Shown here piece by piece: positions 19,680-25,731 of a stretch of DNA of 36,772 bases. This DNA comes from Paracoccaceae bacterium (GTDB lineage Bacteria > Pseudomonadota > Alphaproteobacteria > Rhodobacterales > Rhodobacteraceae), in contig JAIXPH010000038.1 in assembly GCA_027486345.1 (NCBI GenBank), positions 1 through 36,772 of the forward strand, read 5' to 3'. Below the pieces are notes generated by a model that was not told the DNA's origin, searched no databases, and saw only the letters and a program-made list of their open reading frames with translations. Position numbers and translations under genes: made by a program. How positions within the stretch are numbered: the stretch's first letter is position 1; the number at the start of each line of letters is the position of its first letter.

Positions 19680-20552
19680 TCAGGCTTCTGCGCTGGCCTG
19701 CGGCCTTTTTGCCCGTGCCGCCAGCGCCGCCCCCCCCGCGATCAGGACCGCCGCGATCAGCAGCGTCCAGCTTGGTGCCGTGAACCCTGCGAGGACCAGC
19801 GCCAAAGTTGACAACAGCGGGGCAGCATAGGAGGCGACGCCCAGCAACTGGATGTCGCCTTTTTTCATGCCGATATCCCATGTGAAGAACGCGGCACCAA
19901 CCGGCCCGATGCCAAGCGCCAACACCGCAAGCCAGCCGGCGGTTCCTTGCGGCCAGATGGTCTGTTCCAACGCCAGATGGGCGGGCAGCGAAAGCAGCGC
20001 CGTGCCCAGACAATAGATCGTGACGCTTTCCGTGGGCACATCGCCCAGACGCCGCGACAGCACGGAATAGGCGGCCCACGTCACGGCGCAGAGGAAGCCA
20101 AGGCCAAGCCCGGTCAGGTTCACTGCCCCGCCATCGCCGCGGTTCAGCACGATCAGCGCGGCACCGGCAAAGGCGACCAGCGCGCCGATGATATGGGCGG
20201 GACGGATCGTCTCACCCGGCAAGAGGCCAGAGAAAAGCACGATGAACAGCGGCCAGAGATAGGCCATCAACCCGGTCTCGGCACTGGGGGCGACACGAAA
20301 GGCGGTGAAGTACAGCGCGTGATAGCCGAACAGGCCAAGGATGCCAAAGGCATAGACCCGCCACGAAATCCCCTTTAGCCGCGACAGCCCGTTCCGCAGC
20401 GTCCAGATCAGGCCCAGCGCGCCGCCGATGCCAAAGGTCAGGACGTTCAGCAGAAACGGCGGGACCGGCGCAGAGCCGATGGTGAACAGCGCCAGCAGCG
20501 CCCACATCAGGATGGCGGTAAAGCCGATGGCGGTGGCGTTCTGGCGTGTCAT
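19680..20552 (-). CDS. EamA-type (DMT superfamily) transporter
   Basis: 290 residues from the ATG at 20552, which has AGGAAG upstream. There are about ten hydrophobic helices in two EamA halves. Examples are FTAILMWALLALFTIGSA in helix 1, FGYHALYFTAFRVAPSAETG in helix 3 and the GPVGAAFFTWDIGMKKGDIQ segment typical of the second half. Members export amino acids or other metabolites; the sequence pattern is closest to the YddG-type aromatic amino acid exporters, but the substrate is inferred. The structured repeat element lies immediately upstream of the start codon (20609-20852). Confidence 0.88.
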   Translation of the reverse strand: MTRQNATAIGFTAILMWALLALFTIGSAPVPPFLLNVLTFGIGGALGLIWTLRNGLSRLKGISWRVYAFGILGLFGYHALYFTAFRVAPSAETGLMAYLWPLFIVLFSGLLPGETIRPAHIIGALVAFAGAALIVLNRGDGGAVNLTGLGLGFLCAVTWAAYSVLSRRLGDVPTESVTIYCLGTALLSLPAHLALEQTIWPQGTAGWLAVLALGIGPVGAAFFTWDIGMKKGDIQLLGVASYAAPLLSTLALVLAGFTAPSWTLLIAAVLIAGGAALAARAKRPQASAEA

Positions 20553-20608
20553 GGGCGCTTCCTGCAAGGTCGGGTGCAGGTGTAGCGAAGGCGGGGGAAA
20601 AGGAAAGG

Positions 20609-20852
20609 GACCAGAGGACCGACGCGGGGACGTCCAGTGGACGTTCCCGCCGGTCTGATTGCGGCTGAGGCAACGAAGCCGCAAGGGGAGTTCAGCACAA
20701 CTGCGGTATCAGGCACGCGGCGCGCACGACCGGGCGGGAGCGATTTATCGCGCCCGCCAAGGGGCGGGCGGGCGCGGCGCGTGCACGGGGCGCACGCGCA
20801 GGACCGCGTCACCCGATGCAAAACGCGCGCAACACGGGTTGCGCGCGACTGT
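20609..20852 (+). repeat. Structured dispersed element, copy A (five hairpins)
   Basis: 244 nt, from GACCAGAG to ACTGT. It matches 24529-24773 on the other strand over its whole length. The series of stems is: H1 20624-20635 with 20639-20650; H2 TTGCGGCT 20659-20666 with AGCCGCAA 20677-20684; H3 20733-20742 with 20749-20758 (one mismatch); H4 GCGCGTGC 20777-20784 with GCACGCGC 20792-20799; H5 CGCGCGCAA 20824-20832 with TTGCGCGCG 20839-20847. The right arm of H3 can instead pair perfectly with 20767-20776. It lies between phaB (3' side) and the DMT transporter (5' side). The coding frames inside it do not survive comparison with copy B. Confidence 0.85.
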
Positions 20853-20872
20853 TATGCAGGAAGCGTTTCCGC

Positions 20873-21598
20873 TCAGACGAAGAACTGACCGCCATTTGCG
20901 GAAATCGTGGCACCGGTGATGAAGCCTGCATCCTCGGCCGCCAGGAACACCACGCAGCGTGCGATCTCGGCAGGTTCGCCCAGACGGCCGACCGGGATTT
21001 GCGGGATGATCCGCTCGTTCAGCACTTTTTCGTCGATCGCGCGGACCATTTCCGTGCCGATATAGCCCGGGCAGATCGCGTTGACGGTGATGCCGGCACG
21101 CGCGCCTTCTTGCGCCAAAGCCTTGGTAAAGCCCAGATCACCCGACTTGGCGGCGGAATAGTTGGCCTGCCCGGCCTGACCCTTTTGCCCGTTGATCGAC
21201 GAGATGTTGATCACGCGGCCAAACTTTCGGTCGCGCATGCCCGACCACAGCGGATGGGTCATGTTGAACAGACCCGTCAGGTTGGTGTCGATGACTTCTT
21301 TCCACTGGCCGGGGGTCATCTTGTGGAACATGGCGTCGCGCGTGATCCCGGCGTTGTTCACCAGCACGTCGACGGGGCCAAGATCAGCCTCGACCTGTTT
21401 GATGCCCGCGACGCAGGCATCGTAGTCGGCGACGGACCACTTGTAGGTCGGAATGCCGGTTTCGGCGGTGAAAGCGGCCGCCGCTTCGTCATTGCCCGCG
21501 TAGTTTGCGGCGACGGTGTAGCCCGCCGCTTTCAGCGCGACCGAGATCGCCGCCCCGATGCCGCGCGACCCGCCCGTCACCAATGCCACTCTTGCCAT
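20873..21598 (-). CDS. phaB: Acetoacetyl-CoA reductase
   Basis: 241 residues, the family length. It reduces acetoacetyl-CoA to (R)-3-hydroxybutyryl-CoA with NADPH, the second step of polyhydroxybutyrate synthesis. It is a short-chain dehydrogenase: cofactor loop GGSRGIG at 9-15, NNAGITRDAMFHKM at 81-94 (typical of PhaB), and catalytic Ser134, Tyr147 and Lys151 in the NYSAAKSG motif. A strong GAGGAGG ribosome site precedes the ATG at 21598. It lies 109 nt downstream of phaA on the same strand, with a stable hairpin between them. Confidence 0.96.
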   Translation of the reverse strand: MARVALVTGGSRGIGAAISVALKAAGYTVAANYAGNDEAAAAFTAETGIPTYKWSVADYDACVAGIKQVEADLGPVDVLVNNAGITRDAMFHKMTPGQWKEVIDTNLTGLFNMTHPLWSGMRDRKFGRVINISSINGQKGQAGQANYSAAKSGDLGFTKALAQEGARAGITVNAICPGYIGTEMVRAIDEKVLNERIIPQIPVGRLGEPAEIARCVVFLAAEDAGFITGATISANGGQFFV

Positions 21599-21644
21599 GG
21601 ATCATCCTCCTCGATGTCTTTGAAATGGTGTTACTTAAATGACG

Positions 21645-21673
21645 ATGGACGCGCAAGATTATTGCGCGTCCAT
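21645..21673. terminator. Perfect 12-bp hairpin between phaA and phaB
   Basis: ATGGACGCGCAA at 21645-21656 pairs perfectly with TTGCGCGTCCAT at 21662-21673 around a 5-nt loop. In the operon direction (minus) no T tract follows it; on the plus strand TTTT follows. It may partly terminate or stabilise the phaA transcript and so set the phaA:phaB ratio. Confidence 0.55.
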
Positions 21674-21707
21674 TTTGCAGTTGCAGCAATTCGCCGCAGC
21701 GAAGCGA

Positions 21708-22883
21708 TCAGCCGCGCTCAAGGCACATGGCGACGCCCATGCCGCCGCCGATGCACAGCGTGGCCAGACCCTTTTTCACATCGCGACGGGCCATTTCGAA
21801 CAGAAGCGTGTTCAGGATGCGCGCACCCGAAGCCCCGATGGGGTGACCGATGGCAATCGCGCCGCCGTTGACATTCACGATGGCCGGATCCCAGCCCATG
21901 TCCTTGTTCACGGCACAGGCTTGGGCGGCGAAAGCCTCATTCGCCTCGACCAGACCCAGATCGCCGACCGACCAACCGGCCTTGGTCAGCGCTTTGCGGC
22001 TGGCGTGGATGGGGCCGACGCCCATGATCGACGGGTCAAGCCCGGCGGTGGCGTAAGAGGCGATGCGCGCCAAAACGGTCAGGCCGCGCTTTGCCGCCTC
22101 TTCCTCCGACATCAGCACGACCGCAGCCGCGCCGTCGTTCAGGCCGGATGCGTTGCCCGCGGTGACCGAGCCATCCTTGGTGAAGGCGGGGCGCAGTTTG
22201 GCCATGCTGTCCAGCGTGGCACCGTGGCGGATGTATTCGTCGGCATCCACGGTGACGTCGCCCTTGCGGGTCTTGATCACGAAGGGGATGATCTCATCCT
22301 TGAACTTGCCGGCCTTTTGCGCGGCCTCGGCCTTGTTCTGGCTGGCCAGCGCGAATTCGTCCTGCTGGTCGCGCGAAATCTGCCACTGGTTGGCGACGTT
22401 TTCCGCCGTCTGGCCCATGTGATAGCCGTTGAACGCGTCCCACAGCCCGTCACGGATCATCGAATCGATGAAGTTGAGATCGCCCATCTTCTGCCCGGCG
22501 CGCAGATGCGCGACATGGGGCGACAGCGACATGTTTTCCTGACCGCCCGCGACGACGATCCGTGTATCGCCCAGTTGCACATGCTGTGCGCCCAAGGCCA
22601 CCGCGCGCAGACCCGAACCGCAGACCTGGTTCAGCGACCAGGCGCTGGCCTCTTTCGGCAGACCGGCCTTGATATGCGCCTGACGGGCGGGGTTCTGGCC
22701 CTGACCGGCGGTCAGCACCTGGCCGAGGATGGTTTCTTCAACCTCCGCCTTGTCGATGCCCGCGCGGGCGACGACGGCGTCGATCACGGCAGCGCCGAGG
22801 TCATGCGCGGGGGTGGCGGCGAACGAGCCGTTGAAGCTGCCCACGGCGGTGCGCGCCGCCGCGACGATTACGACATTGGTCAT
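21708..22883 (-). CDS. phaA: Acetyl-CoA acetyltransferase (beta-ketothiolase)
   Basis: 391 residues from the ATG at 22883, with an AGAGGA ribosome site. It condenses two acetyl-CoA to acetoacetyl-CoA. All thiolase landmarks are in place: the nucleophilic Cys88 in [12 protein letters not shown], His347 in [17 protein letters not shown] and Cys377 in LCIGGGMG. With phaB it forms the precursor arm of polyhydroxybutyrate synthesis; phaC, phaP and phaR are not in the window. A 21-nt palindrome lies at its promoter. Confidence 0.97.
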
Positions 22884-22924
22884 GGCTGGTCCTCTTTCTG
22901 TCTGGTCCCCGGCATGCTGAAAAT

Positions 22925-22945
22925 TCATGCCGCCTTGCAGCATGA
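22925..22945. promoter_or_regulatory. Palindromic operator candidate at the phaA promoter
   Basis: TCATGCCGC (22925-22933), CTT, GCAGCATGA (22937-22945): 9-nt arms with one mismatch. On the minus strand its core reads CTGC-AAG-GCGG, close to the CTGC-N3/4-GCAG type of site reported for PhaR of Paracoccus. It ends 41 nt upstream of the phaA start and overlaps the predicted -10. Confidence 0.5.
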
Positions 22946-22971
22946 CTAGGCGCGCGGCGAACCAAAAGCAA
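22943..22971 (-). promoter_or_regulatory. Possible phaA promoter
   Basis: On the minus strand TTGCTT (22971-22966) and TAGTCA (22948-22943) with a 17-nt spacer. The -10 is weak and overlaps the palindrome by three bases. Confidence 0.35.
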
Positions 22972-23010
22972 CAATCTTGCGTGCCCAGATTGACGCAGGG
23001 GAAAGTTGCG

Positions 23011-23883
23011 CTACGCGCGGCGCAGACGTGACGGGCTGAGCGGGGATTTGCTGGGCCGCCGGTCACGCTGGTCGGGTTGCAACCCCGGCGGTGACAGGCT
23101 GGGGGCGCCGAAGTGATAGCCTTGCAGACAGTCAAGACCCAGCGCCCGCAGCCATGCGGCCTCTGCCTCCGTCTCAACCCCTTGGGCGATGGTGACCATG
23201 TCGAACTGGCGACCCACAGCCATCAGAGCGGCCATCAGCACCTGATTGTCCGCGTTCCGTTCGATGCCCCGCGTGAACTGCGCGTCGATCTTGACGATAT
23301 CAAAGGTCAATTCCCGCAAGAACCGCAGCGCGCACAGGCCGCCGCCGAACCCGTCGAGGGCAAAGCTGATGCCGTGGCGGCGCATTTCGGCCATGAAGGC
23401 GGCGACGACTTCGGGCATCTGCATCGCCGAGGCTTCGGCGATTTCAAAGATCAGCCGTTGCCCCAAATGTTCGCGCCCCGCCAGCCCCCGGCGCAAGACC
23501 CGCATCCAGCGCGGATAGCCCATCGACCGCGCCGACAGGTTGACCGACAGCCGCAGGTTCGGATCGCGCGCCAGCGATTCCAGCCCGATGGCGAGTGCGA
23601 CGCAGTCAATCTCGCGTCCTGTATCCCGCTCTTCGACCGCCGCCACGAAGTCGCGCGCGGGAATCACCCGGCCGGTCGGGTCCAGCACCCGCACCAACCC
23701 TTCGTAAAAGCCGGTGCGCGACGGATCGCCCGCCACCACCACCGGCTGATAGGCCAGCCGCAGGCGGCGCGCGGCCACCGCATCGGCCACCATCGCCGGA
23801 ACATCCTGATCGCGCAGCGCCAGCGCCACGCCCAAGGCCGTGTCTTCGCCGATCCCCGGCCTGTTTTGTGCACCCGTCGCCAT
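23011..23883 (-). CDS. EAL-domain protein with degenerate catalytic motifs
   Basis: 290 residues from the ATG at 23883, chosen for a GGGGG ribosome site. ATGs at 23919 and 23961 extend the frame; the last overlaps the tag start. EAL domains hydrolyse cyclic-di-GMP. The scaffold is clear: [39 protein letters not shown] and LQGYHFGAP. Several active-site residues appear changed. The usual DDFG loop is ALDGFG at about 175-180 with the second aspartate lost. The usual EGVE is QGVE, so the general-base glutamate is glutamine. It is therefore probably inactive as a phosphodiesterase and may act as a c-di-GMP sensor or protein partner. Confidence 0.85.
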
Positions 23884-23959
23884 GTCTTGCCCCCAAGTTC
23901 GACCCACGCTCGACAGCATGCCGCCACAGGGCTTAAGACGGGGTAAAAGGGGATGCGGC

Positions 23960-24517
23960 ATGGATGGACAACGTTGCCCGTGGTGCGGGACCGATCCGCT
24001 TTATGTGGCCTATCACGACACGGAATGGGGCGTGCCAGAGTATGACAGCCGCGCCTTGTGGGAAAAGCTGATCCTCGACGGGTTTCAGGCGGGGCTGAGC
24101 TGGATCACCATCCTGCGCAAGCGCGACAATTTCCGCGCGGCCTTTGCGGGGTTCGCGCCCGAGGTGATCGCGGGTTGGGGCGAGGCGGAAGTGACGCGCC
24201 TGCTGGCCGATCCGGGCATCATCCGCCATCGAGGCAAGATCGAAGGCACGATCAAATCCGCCCGCGCCTATCTGAAGGTGCAAGACGGCGAAGGGTTTTC
24301 GCAGTACTTCTGGAAGCATCTGGACGGGGTGCCGCTGGACAATGCGCCTTTGACGCCTGCCCATATCCCGACGAAGACGCCCCTGTCGGAGGCGCTGTCC
24401 AAGCAATTGAAGAAGGACGGTTTCACCTTTTGCGGGCCGACGATTGTCTATGCCTTCATGCAGGCGACAGGGATGGTGAATGACCATTTGGCAGGTTGTC
24501 CGGCGCGGCGGGGGTGA
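23960..24517 (+). CDS. tag: DNA-3-methyladenine glycosylase I
   Basis: 185 residues. It removes 3-methyladenine from alkylated DNA, starting base-excision repair. The family pattern is nearly complete: RCPWCGTDPLYVAYHDTEWG at the N-terminus, GLSWITILRKRDNF, GIIRHRGKIE, and VNDHLAGCP at the end. The zinc ligands of the family, Cys6, His19, His176 and Cys180, are all present. The start codon overlaps a possible longer start of the divergent EAL gene. It is convergent with tsaC, with the second copy of the structured element between them. Confidence 0.96.
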   Translation: MDGQRCPWCGTDPLYVAYHDTEWGVPEYDSRALWEKLILDGFQAGLSWITILRKRDNFRAAFAGFAPEVIAGWGEAEVTRLLADPGIIRHRGKIEGTIKSARAYLKVQDGEGFSQYFWKHLDGVPLDNAPLTPAHIPTKTPLSEALSKQLKKDGFTFCGPTIVYAFMQATGMVNDHLAGCPARRG

Positions 24518-24528
24518 GACGCACCGGC

Positions 24529-24773
24529 ACAGTCGCGCGGGGCAAGTGACCCGCGCGAGTCGCAACAGTAGACCCATGCCCGCCCGTGCGCCCAACGCAC
24601 GGGCCGCGCCCGCCCTGCGGGGGGCGGGCGCGCAAAGGGCGCACCCGCCGGGCGGTCACGACCCGTGCCTGATGCATCAGGACTGCTGAACACCCCTTGC
24701 GGCTTCGTCGCCTCAGCCGCAATCGAACCGGCGAAACGCGCCACAGGCGCGTTGTCGCGTCGGTTCTCTGGTC
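24529..24773 (-). repeat. Structured dispersed element, copy B (five hairpins)
   Basis: 245 nt, read on the minus strand from GACCAGAG (24773) to ACTGT (24529). It has the same stem order as 20609-20852. H1 is 24746-24758 with 24731-24742, with one bulged base. H2 is identical in sequence to copy A. H3 is 24640-24649 with 24623-24632. H4 is GCCCGTGC with GCACGGGC (24597-24604 with 24582-24589). H5 is TCGCGCGGG with CCCGCGCGA. The central segment 24623-24632 extends to an 11-bp perfect alternative helix with 24605-24615. It fills the space between the convergent tag and tsaC genes. Confidence 0.85.
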
Positions 24774-24777
24774 GCGC

Positions 24778-25731
24778 TTACCCTCTCGGCGCCGCTGCCC
24801 GTGACAGCCGGTCATTGATCGCGCGGCCAAGGCCCGTCATCGGCACGGGGGCGAAGGCGATGGTTCCGCCCTCTCCCGCCAAGGCATCTGCCTCGCGCAG
24901 GATATGGAACAGACGTGCCGCAGCCTCGACCTCATCCCCCGACTCGGACAGGGACAGCGCAGCCCCGGGACAGGGGCCGAAGCCGACCCAGACATCACCA
25001 ACCACAGGCGCGGTGACGTTCAGACGCACCCGCGCGCCGGGGGCGTAGTGGCTGGCCAATTGACCGGGGGCCGATGGTTTTGCAGCATCGCCGCTTGTTG
25101 GAAGGGCCATACCCAAGGCCGCCTCCAACGCCTCAGCCGCCACACCGCCGGGGCGGAGCAGGGTCGGCGGGCCGTCAAGGCCAAGGATCGTCGACTCCAC
25201 ACCGACTTTGCAGGCGCCACCGTCCAGCACAGCCTCGATCCGGCCCGACAGCCCCTCCAGCACATGCGCGGCGCGGGTGGGCGAAACCTTGCCCGAGGGA
25301 TTGGCCGACGGTGCCGCCAACGGACCATCAAACGCCGCCAGCAGCGCCCGCGCCACCGGATGGGCCGGCACCCGGATCGCCACGGTGGGCAATTCCGCCG
25401 TCACCAGCGCCGACAGGCCGGCATCGGCGCGCAGGGGCAGCACCAGCGTCAGGGGGCCGGGCCAGAATTGCGCCGCCAAACTTTCGGCGCGGGCATCAAA
25501 CACCGCGTAGCGTCGCGCGGTCGCTAAATCAGGCACGTGCACGATCAAGGGATTGAACCGGGGCCGCCCCTTGGCCTGATAAATCCGCGCCACCGCCCGA
25601 TCATCCCGCGCATCGCCGCCAAGGCCGTAAACCGTCTCGGTCGGAAAGGCGACAAGCCCGCCCGCGCGCAGGATATCTGCCGCGCGGATGATGCCCGGGG
25701 GCGTGGGAAGCAGGCTTTGCGTTGTGATCAT
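24778..25731 (-). CDS. L-threonylcarbamoyladenylate synthase (Sua5 type)
   Basis: 317 residues from the ATG at 25731. It makes threonylcarbamoyl-AMP from threonine, bicarbonate and ATP, the first step of the t6A37 modification of tRNAs reading ANN codons. The YrdC-type catalytic domain is clear: GGLVAFPTETVYGLGGDA at about 24-41, KGRPRFNPLIVHV, RVPAHPVARALL, and APSANPSGKVSPT. The extra C-terminal region of about 110 residues, with HYAPGARVRL, marks the longer Sua5 form over the short TsaC. The family name tsaC or sua5 would both be used. Upstream it is divergent from the acyl-CoA dehydrogenase gene. Confidence 0.94.
   Translation of the reverse strand: MITTQSLLPTPPGIIRAADILRAGGLVAFPTETVYGLGGDARDDRAVARIYQAKGRPRFNPLIVHVPDLATARRYAVFDARAESLAAQFWPGPLTLVLPLRADAGLSALVTAELPTVAIRVPAHPVARALLAAFDGPLAAPSANPSGKVSPTRAAHVLEGLSGRIEAVLDGGACKVGVESTILGLDGPPTLLRPGGVAAEALEAALGMALPTSGDAAKPSAPGQLASHYAPGARVRLNVTAPVVGDVWVGFGPCPGAALSLSESGDEVEAAARLFHILREADALAGEGGTIAFAPVPMTGLGRAINDRLSRAAAPRG

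Follow-up and report, generated by a model that had tools for sequence, protein, structure and literature searches.

Analysis of this Rhodobacteraceae bacterium revealed a folded DNA element of ~240 bases that occupies ~25 intergenic places in its genome. It behaves like a small mobile element, because the corresponding gaps in sister species often hold different and frequently flipped copies. With modest confidence, we interpret it as a small, non-coding and non-autonomous mobile element of the Rhodobacteraceae whose working form would be a folded single strand, either RNA or single-stranded DNA.

The window, i.e. the whole stretch of 36,772 nucleotides analyzed here, contains two copies, A and B. 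A preliminary description of this DNA had placed them at 20609-20852 on the plus strand and 24529-24773 on the minus strand, where they indeed align over their full length, from GACCAG to GACTGT; the arm differences that it listed for hairpins H1, H4 and H5 are present in the two sequences. The features of both copies and their neighbor genes are as follows, where R1 is a covariance model of the 5' half of the element, built from 25 copies.

19680..20552, minus strand: EamA-type transporter gene, neighbor of copy A, with its start side towards the element
20609..20852, plus strand: copy A, 244 nt, from the alignment; R1 match at 20607-20690 (plus)
20616..20656, plus strand: H1, long hairpin with outer stem GGACCG/CGGTCT, variable inner stem and near-constant tip
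20659..20684, plus strand: H2, hairpin TTGCGGCT/AGCCGCAA, then GGGG
20713..20784, plus strand: H3, large hairpin whose closing arms are A (20713-20719) and B (20778-20784)
20778..20798, plus strand: H4, formed by arms B (20778-20784) and C (20792-20798), a rival of H3 for arm B
20824..20847, plus strand: H5, terminal hairpin CGCGCGCAAC/GTTGCGCGCG, with arms highly variable across copies
20873..21589, minus strand: short-chain dehydrogenase gene, neighbor of copy A, with its 3' end 20 nt from the element
24005..24517, plus strand: methyladenine glycosylase gene (Adenine_glyco), neighbor of copy B
24529..24773, minus strand: copy B, 245 nt, from the alignment; R1 match at 24691-24775 (minus)
24533..24558, minus strand: H5 of copy B, TCGCGCGGG/CCCGCGCGA, the hairpin of L016 in the arm comparison
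24583..24668, minus strand: arms A (24668-24662), B (24603-24597) and C (24589-24583) of copy B, from alignment A4
24778..25731, minus strand: Sua5/YrdC-type gene, neighbor of copy B

The two copies first described belong to a much larger set. R1 found 25 strong copies and one weak match in the 4.08 Mb genome (G000), and a family-wide covariance model, R2, recovered the same 25 copies and two weak matches; both models represent the 5' half alone. Since two of the strong copies (L009/L024) stand in tandem at one site and another copy (L022 and L020) is split by an insertion over two contigs, the number of sites in G000 is 24. When copy A was used as a query against its own genome, 28 matches were obtained, including fragments and the palindromic reverse of one copy. 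A known RNA family was rejected: Rfam 15 gave no match above the gathering threshold in the window, and none up to E 5 in 20500-24900, so the element would merit a library entry. It was not found in print among open-licence papers, and the word 'Rhodobacter' is absent from the main texts of PMC2267715, PMC12306157 and PMC3733652.

The element begins with a G-rich stretch and CAGAG at its 5' edge. Across 96 genus copies, H1 combines a near-constant outer stem with a widely varying inner stem, and its tip consists of two C-G pairs around a 3-nt loop (AGT in copy A), these pairs being retained in 95/96 and 96/96 copies. H2 is closed by TTG/CAA pairs, with GGGG after it; it had been called invariant, which holds between copies A and B but not genus-wide, where H2 has paired changes too. 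Arm B is the complement of A and of C alike, and in copy A the three arms had changed together. H4 had been described as a hairpin, and its arms can pair, but its 5' arm (arm B) doubles as the 3' arm of H3; H3 and H4 compete for this arm and are therefore alternatives. An exact 7-mer match among the three arms was present in 20 of the 53 copies used (three of 56 were too short), compared with 0-1 in each of 20 shuffles; the remaining 33 copies failed this exact criterion, and the matches comprised eight overlapping words, about five of them really different. H5 lies at a mostly constant distance behind the three-arm part; a mechanical search for it returned a hairpin in 71 of 82 copies, with 39 distinct arm pairs, a few of which are evidently other nearby hairpins. 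By inspection, a shorter unit lies inside the H3 region at loci of other genera (L061, L062, L075 and L079). In it, an H1-like hairpin tipped by TCCAGTGGA or TCCGGTGGA is accompanied by a second G+C-rich hairpin, and units similar to it were seen in L377 and L378 of G000.

With regard to structure, both copies folded better, each on its own 5'-3' strand, than any of 200 dinucleotide shuffles (z -5.64 for copy A and -4.52 for copy B). In alignment A5 (the 5' half of the 96 genus copies, which came from a search of 93 sources), 96.5% of the cells were paired, and double changes occurred in 21 of 26 pairs; the covariation score was 0.353 against 0.119 in shuffles, and fell to at most 0.072 once one arm was slid by 1-3 columns. 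Similarly, A6 (61 distinct family-wide copies) had 96.4% paired cells, double changes in 25 of 26 pairs and a score of 0.467 against 0.124. Both alignments were fitted to a covariance model, which favors the model, but the initial MAFFT alignment, made from 25 copies, agreed with them (94.0% paired, 14/26 double changes, 0.283 versus 0.123). In the APC-corrected ranking, 14 of the 26 stem pairs of A5 fell within the top 26 and the five best were stem pairs, although a few non-stem pairs scored high too; in A6, 15 of 22 fell within the top 22 and the eleven best were stem pairs. In the stems of the 5' half, structure is thus more strongly conserved than sequence. The original claim of a structured dispersed element is borne out in that these stems are held by paired changes in an element without an Rfam match. 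For the 3' half (A4, 22 copies), the ranking was not significant, with two stem pairs in the top 34, and the H5 arms were therefore compared instead.

The preliminary description had also concluded that selection acts on the structure. Two copies alone are weak proof of this, because an arm copied from its partner also yields paired changes; the claim gains its support from the wider alignments and from a partial strand asymmetry. That complementarity arose by mutation alone, an arm being copied from its partner during replication or repair without selection on structure, appears decidedly unlikely to us. The arms of H5 and of inner H1 do vary widely yet stay complementary, and at one locus (L297) a 5' arm recurs as a perfect fold-back palindrome, so arm copying seems to happen. 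Such copying should nevertheless be strand-symmetric, and A5 is not: pairs turned into G.U or A.C in a ratio of 37:10, and purine-purine and pyrimidine-pyrimidine mismatches stood at 69:8. This asymmetry was weaker in A6 (29:16 and 26:10); the corresponding counts were 18:1 and 4:2 in H3, and in H5, where it was absent, 0:2 and 0:1. As it is uneven and the copies are related rather than independent, no probability is claimed for it, but it tends to favor the displayed strand as the one that folds, be it RNA or single-stranded DNA. Moreover, arm copying leaves the near-constant H1 tip and the spread of copies unexplained.

A covariance-model search of Rhodobacteraceae genomes, which had been proposed at the outset, found further copies with both models. 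Within the genus, R1 matched 9 of 19 genomes (own included) and gave no match in the other ten. In the family, matches were found in 12 of 295 genomes with R1 and in 41 of 394 with R2 (own included in both cases), many of the latter being single weak matches. Class-wide, five of 385 genomes matched; two belong to the same family, and the three from other families gave weak matches of no more than 46.4 bits. The broad searches used stricter filters and scored 11-15 candidates per genome, so the copy numbers that they gave are lower bounds. Thus, the element is patchy in Rhodobacteraceae and found weakly elsewhere in the class. A pattern scan of named genomes returned at least 113 stretches, and many of the non-Rhodobacteraceae ones among those listed look like chance. 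For the follow-up, 36 Rhodobacteraceae-like stretches of these, 24 of 26 family-search loci (L068 and L081 omitted) and five genus copies were taken; these 65 sources yielded 66 matches, and seven of the 36 Rhodobacteraceae-like stretches gave none. Carriage by plasmids or phages was rejected, as neither 72,556 plasmid records nor 50,697 phage records contained a match, and 14 pattern hits in viral contigs, none of which matched R2, were probably chance. The 96 5'-half copies in nine related genomes, many of them at shared sites, constitute a large natural experiment.

Copies are intergenic, usually with a gene 3' end no farther than 80 nt away. None of 26 fragments overlapped a gene predicted by our home-made gene caller; nine and six lay between genes of one direction, seven between convergent and two between divergent genes, and two were undecided. 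Copy B makes up nearly the whole gap between the convergent gene ends at 24517 and 24778. A processed leader or trailer, one of the readings initially offered, is unlikely, because copies face both ways relative to their neighbor genes, and a given site may hold opposite orientations in different species. It could also be argued that the element is a domesticated 3'-end element, i.e. a hairpin cluster that ends or stabilizes transcripts from either side and would be retained because it is required at gene 3' ends, as proposed for REP/BIME, which we consider rather unlikely. In a simple scan, only six of the 29 gene 3' ends facing an element had their own intrinsic terminator in the gap, and many of the gaps measure 3-25 nt. 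At locus A, where four of 19 genomes contain the element, the relatives without it have terminator-like hairpins or other palindrome pairs, several of them a hairpin and T-run behind the dehydrogenase gene (by inspection). Indifference to orientation would suit such a two-way function as well. On the other hand, inspection of the aligned copies found no T-run behind H5, the last hairpin, and the element is hence not a typical intrinsic terminator; several copies (e.g. L002, L003, L008 and L017) even lie beyond an intact terminator, and more than half of the genus members have no match. A 3'-end role alone would also leave the exchange for non-orthologous copies, described below, unexplained. 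As a separate observation, the same gap at locus A of G001, G003, G018 and G002 (L088, L092, L099 and L102, respectively) contains a different family of paired palindromes, of the TTTCTGACGCAGAAA and GAATTTGACGCAAATTC types.

Comparison of sister genomes showed that many sites are shared. An element was present in the same gap at 17 of the 24 G000 sites in G006 and at 13 of the 24 in G014, with fewer shared sites in more distant genus members. Direction could be compared in eight sister genomes for 39 pairs at 16 sites (omitting the tandem site L009/L024 and the IS-split site L020/L022): 20 pairs had the same direction and 19 were flipped. These pairs are not 39 events, because relatives share ancestry; at the L004 site, for example, G002 and G013 have one flipped state and one H5 type in common. 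Several carriers are fragmented drafts, with metagenome assemblies involved, and flipped cases occurred in less fragmented genomes too (G001, G002, G015 and G017).

Identity was compared for 41 pairs (adding L008/L245 and two L019 pairs, without L016/L267), and 12 of the 18 sites had at least one flipped relative. First, ten of 21 same-direction pairs were best matches, all ten at 0.90-0.95 identity, compared with one of 20 flipped pairs; mean identity was 0.87 and 0.83, respectively. Second, after correction for copy typicality, the identity excess was 0.059 in same-direction pairs (p<0.0001) and 0.007 in flipped pairs (p 0.14; background sd 0.029), and 10/21 versus 1/20 exceeded the background's 95th percentile. 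Finally, the flipped excess was 0.001 (p 0.44) in the close relatives G006 and G014, and was less clearly gone in distant relatives (0.012, p 0.10). Had the same copy been flipped, flipped pairs would be as similar as unflipped ones; they differ, which means that copies were mostly exchanged in place, in either direction. This exchange is not universal, since at least ten same-direction pairs look like plain vertical inheritance.

The alternative of in-place inversion, in which inverted repeats on both sides recombine and turn the same copy around, as in an inverton, is highly improbable. Nearly half of the pairs (19/39) are flipped, flipped pairs ranked somewhat better by raw rank than unrelated copies (mean percentile 0.33 versus 0.5), and a few loci have short edge inverted repeats: five of 40 own flank pairs scored at least 20, compared with 3% of mixed pairs, although one of these five is a contig-start oddity (L261) and two represent one site (L238 and L258). 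Overall, own flanks did not significantly exceed mixed flanks in their resemblance to inverted repeats (p 0.13; 40 of 60 copies, whose ends had to be motif-recognizable), and the flipped copies are not sequence orthologs, as their best-match count and corrected excess indicate. Simple inversion of one copy was therefore rejected on flank repeats and flipped-pair identity. The oddity mentioned above (L261; G014:C120, first 62 bases) is a contig that opens with an inverted copy of the gene flank found across the element, which reflects either misassembly or a mixed population.

Traces of earlier occupants were found beside present copies. Remnants of old 5' ends lie next to copies at L005, L012, L017, L243, L263 and L305, and by inspection at L264 and L298; they face the opposite way, and two of them (L243 and L305) break near the tip of the old H1. 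Tandem copies were seen at L009/L024, L297, L298, L300 and L078. At L297 (G013:C5), two very similar copies lie ~320 nt apart in tandem, and the fold-back palindrome is a third unit. At the L018 and L025 sites, G006 has a different hairpin-rich sequence in the gap (L353 in G006:C196 and L354 in G006:C88, respectively); by inspection, one is A-B-C-like and one contains an H1-like hairpin. Such other hairpins and palindromes in the same gaps make these gaps look like reused docking places.

The element may be a non-coding RNA, as another of the initial readings had it. A multicopy family of small-RNA genes with their own transcription, in which conserved sites reflect function at each locus, is quite unlikely in our opinion. 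Strong covariation together with the partial strand asymmetry would fit such genes, and the three-arm motif resembles a switch; but upstream, the G-rich stretch is the sole common feature seen, and mixed orientation, absence from ten genus members and exchange for non-orthologous copies would all be unexpected.

Under the mobile-element reading that we prefer, new copies may be inserted at or into resident copies, for which they would have a preference, or at something that those gaps share. Insertion would proceed through a single-strand intermediate and would be carried out by an enzyme supplied in trans that recognizes the hairpins, above all the constant H1 tip. The resulting tandem or inverted pairs could then collapse to a single copy, and sites near gene 3' ends would be reused by incoming copies. 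A copy lying nearly alone between two stop codons would presumably also have to form the end region of the transcripts concerned.

The usual marks of mobility were also searched for. No target-site duplication was detected (longest shared flank word 3.41 versus 3.34 in mixed flanks, sd 0.15; 34 copies with motif-recognizable ends), and thus the usual mark of cut-and-paste transposition is missing; nor was any empty site recovered whose borders are exact. The 5' and 3' ends of the element differ, so the ends do not form terminal inverted repeats; the reverse complement of the 5' end was found near the 3' edge (p<=0.02) in seven of 89 copies, one of them a tandem neighbor, with ~2 expected. Among candidate movers, the Y1/RAYT transposase (PF01797) was over the cut-off in none of the 19 genus members, with one weak match in G007, and in 5 of 14 control genomes. 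IS110 was over the cut-off in 8/19 genus genomes, among them the carriers G001, G002 and G006, and not in the carriers G000, G005, G013, G014, G015 and G017; TnpB was over it in one of 19 (G002). All three were rejected, as their profile matches do not fit the carriers. A SINE-like pattern was likewise rejected, because the copies read contained no clear 5'-truncated series (R1 and R2 model the 5' half only).

Several known systems resemble the element in part. MITEs, such as Correia/NEMIS and ERIC, are short, folding, non-coding intergenic repeats, as the element is, and like it would be mobilized in trans; the element differs in that terminal inverted repeats are generally absent and target duplication was not detected, and no parent transposon was found for it, an IS481 insertion alone being seen among the copies read. 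Integron attC sites act as a folded single strand in which constant boxes are combined with freely varying complementary arms, a combination that the element may share, to judge from resemblance. RIME and the intergenic repeats of Brucella and Caulobacter are palindromic repeats of Alphaproteobacteria, as intergenic as the element, to which they are likened here by description only. The same applies to the repetitive hairpin-forming elements of sponge mitochondria, quite other genomes, which are said to invade intergenic regions (PMC2800124). Of the three readings initially offered, a DNA-structure repeat in the manner of REP/BIME comes nearest in behavior, but the REP markers looked for are missing. 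REP sequences are described as single palindromes, 20-40 bp in length, that carry an unpaired GTAG or CGTC tag (PMC3733652). Like REP, BIME and REPIN with their RAYT, the element is dispersed, extragenic and hairpin-forming, and as there, an insertion sequence (here of the IS481 family) occurs inside copies. It differs in being ~240 nt long with several hairpins and in lacking a GTAG/CGTC tag at the hairpin edge, its 5' edge being CAGAG (by inspection); the reverse complement of CGTC is present inside H1 in the genus and absent in relatives such as L059 and L061 (by inspection). Furthermore, its genus has no Y1 transposase over the cut-off, and its copies are exchanged in place in either direction.

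Dispersed hairpin repeats of bacteria are usually read as relics of known transposases or as transcript-end structures. We tentatively suggest, while regarding it as doubtful, that the element could represent an undescribed mobile type: a multi-hairpin single strand with near-free arms and a three-arm, switch-like part that would refill fixed docking sites near gene 3' ends with unrelated copies in random direction, entering resident copies or other hairpin elements, without target duplication and without any of the three tested transposase families, which use hairpins or RNA. Its variable but complementary arms could barcode individual copies. The questions of what moves such repeats, and why into the same gaps, can be put to the test, named isolates such as Defluviimonas denitrificans DSM 18921 included.

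Within the copies read, the sole insertion seen was IS481. Locus A of G006 had been considered to hold an autonomous version of the element; this was rejected, because the sequence in question turned out to be an insertion of the IS481 family. This IS481-family element (NF033577, 276 bits, read in L251) lies at 1652-2915 of L251 (G006:C272). In two copies, L251 and L242/L174 (G006:C164), an IS481 end stands at the same H3 position (after CCCCCGGCAGG or CCCCCCGCAGG), so this hairpin looks like a preferred target.
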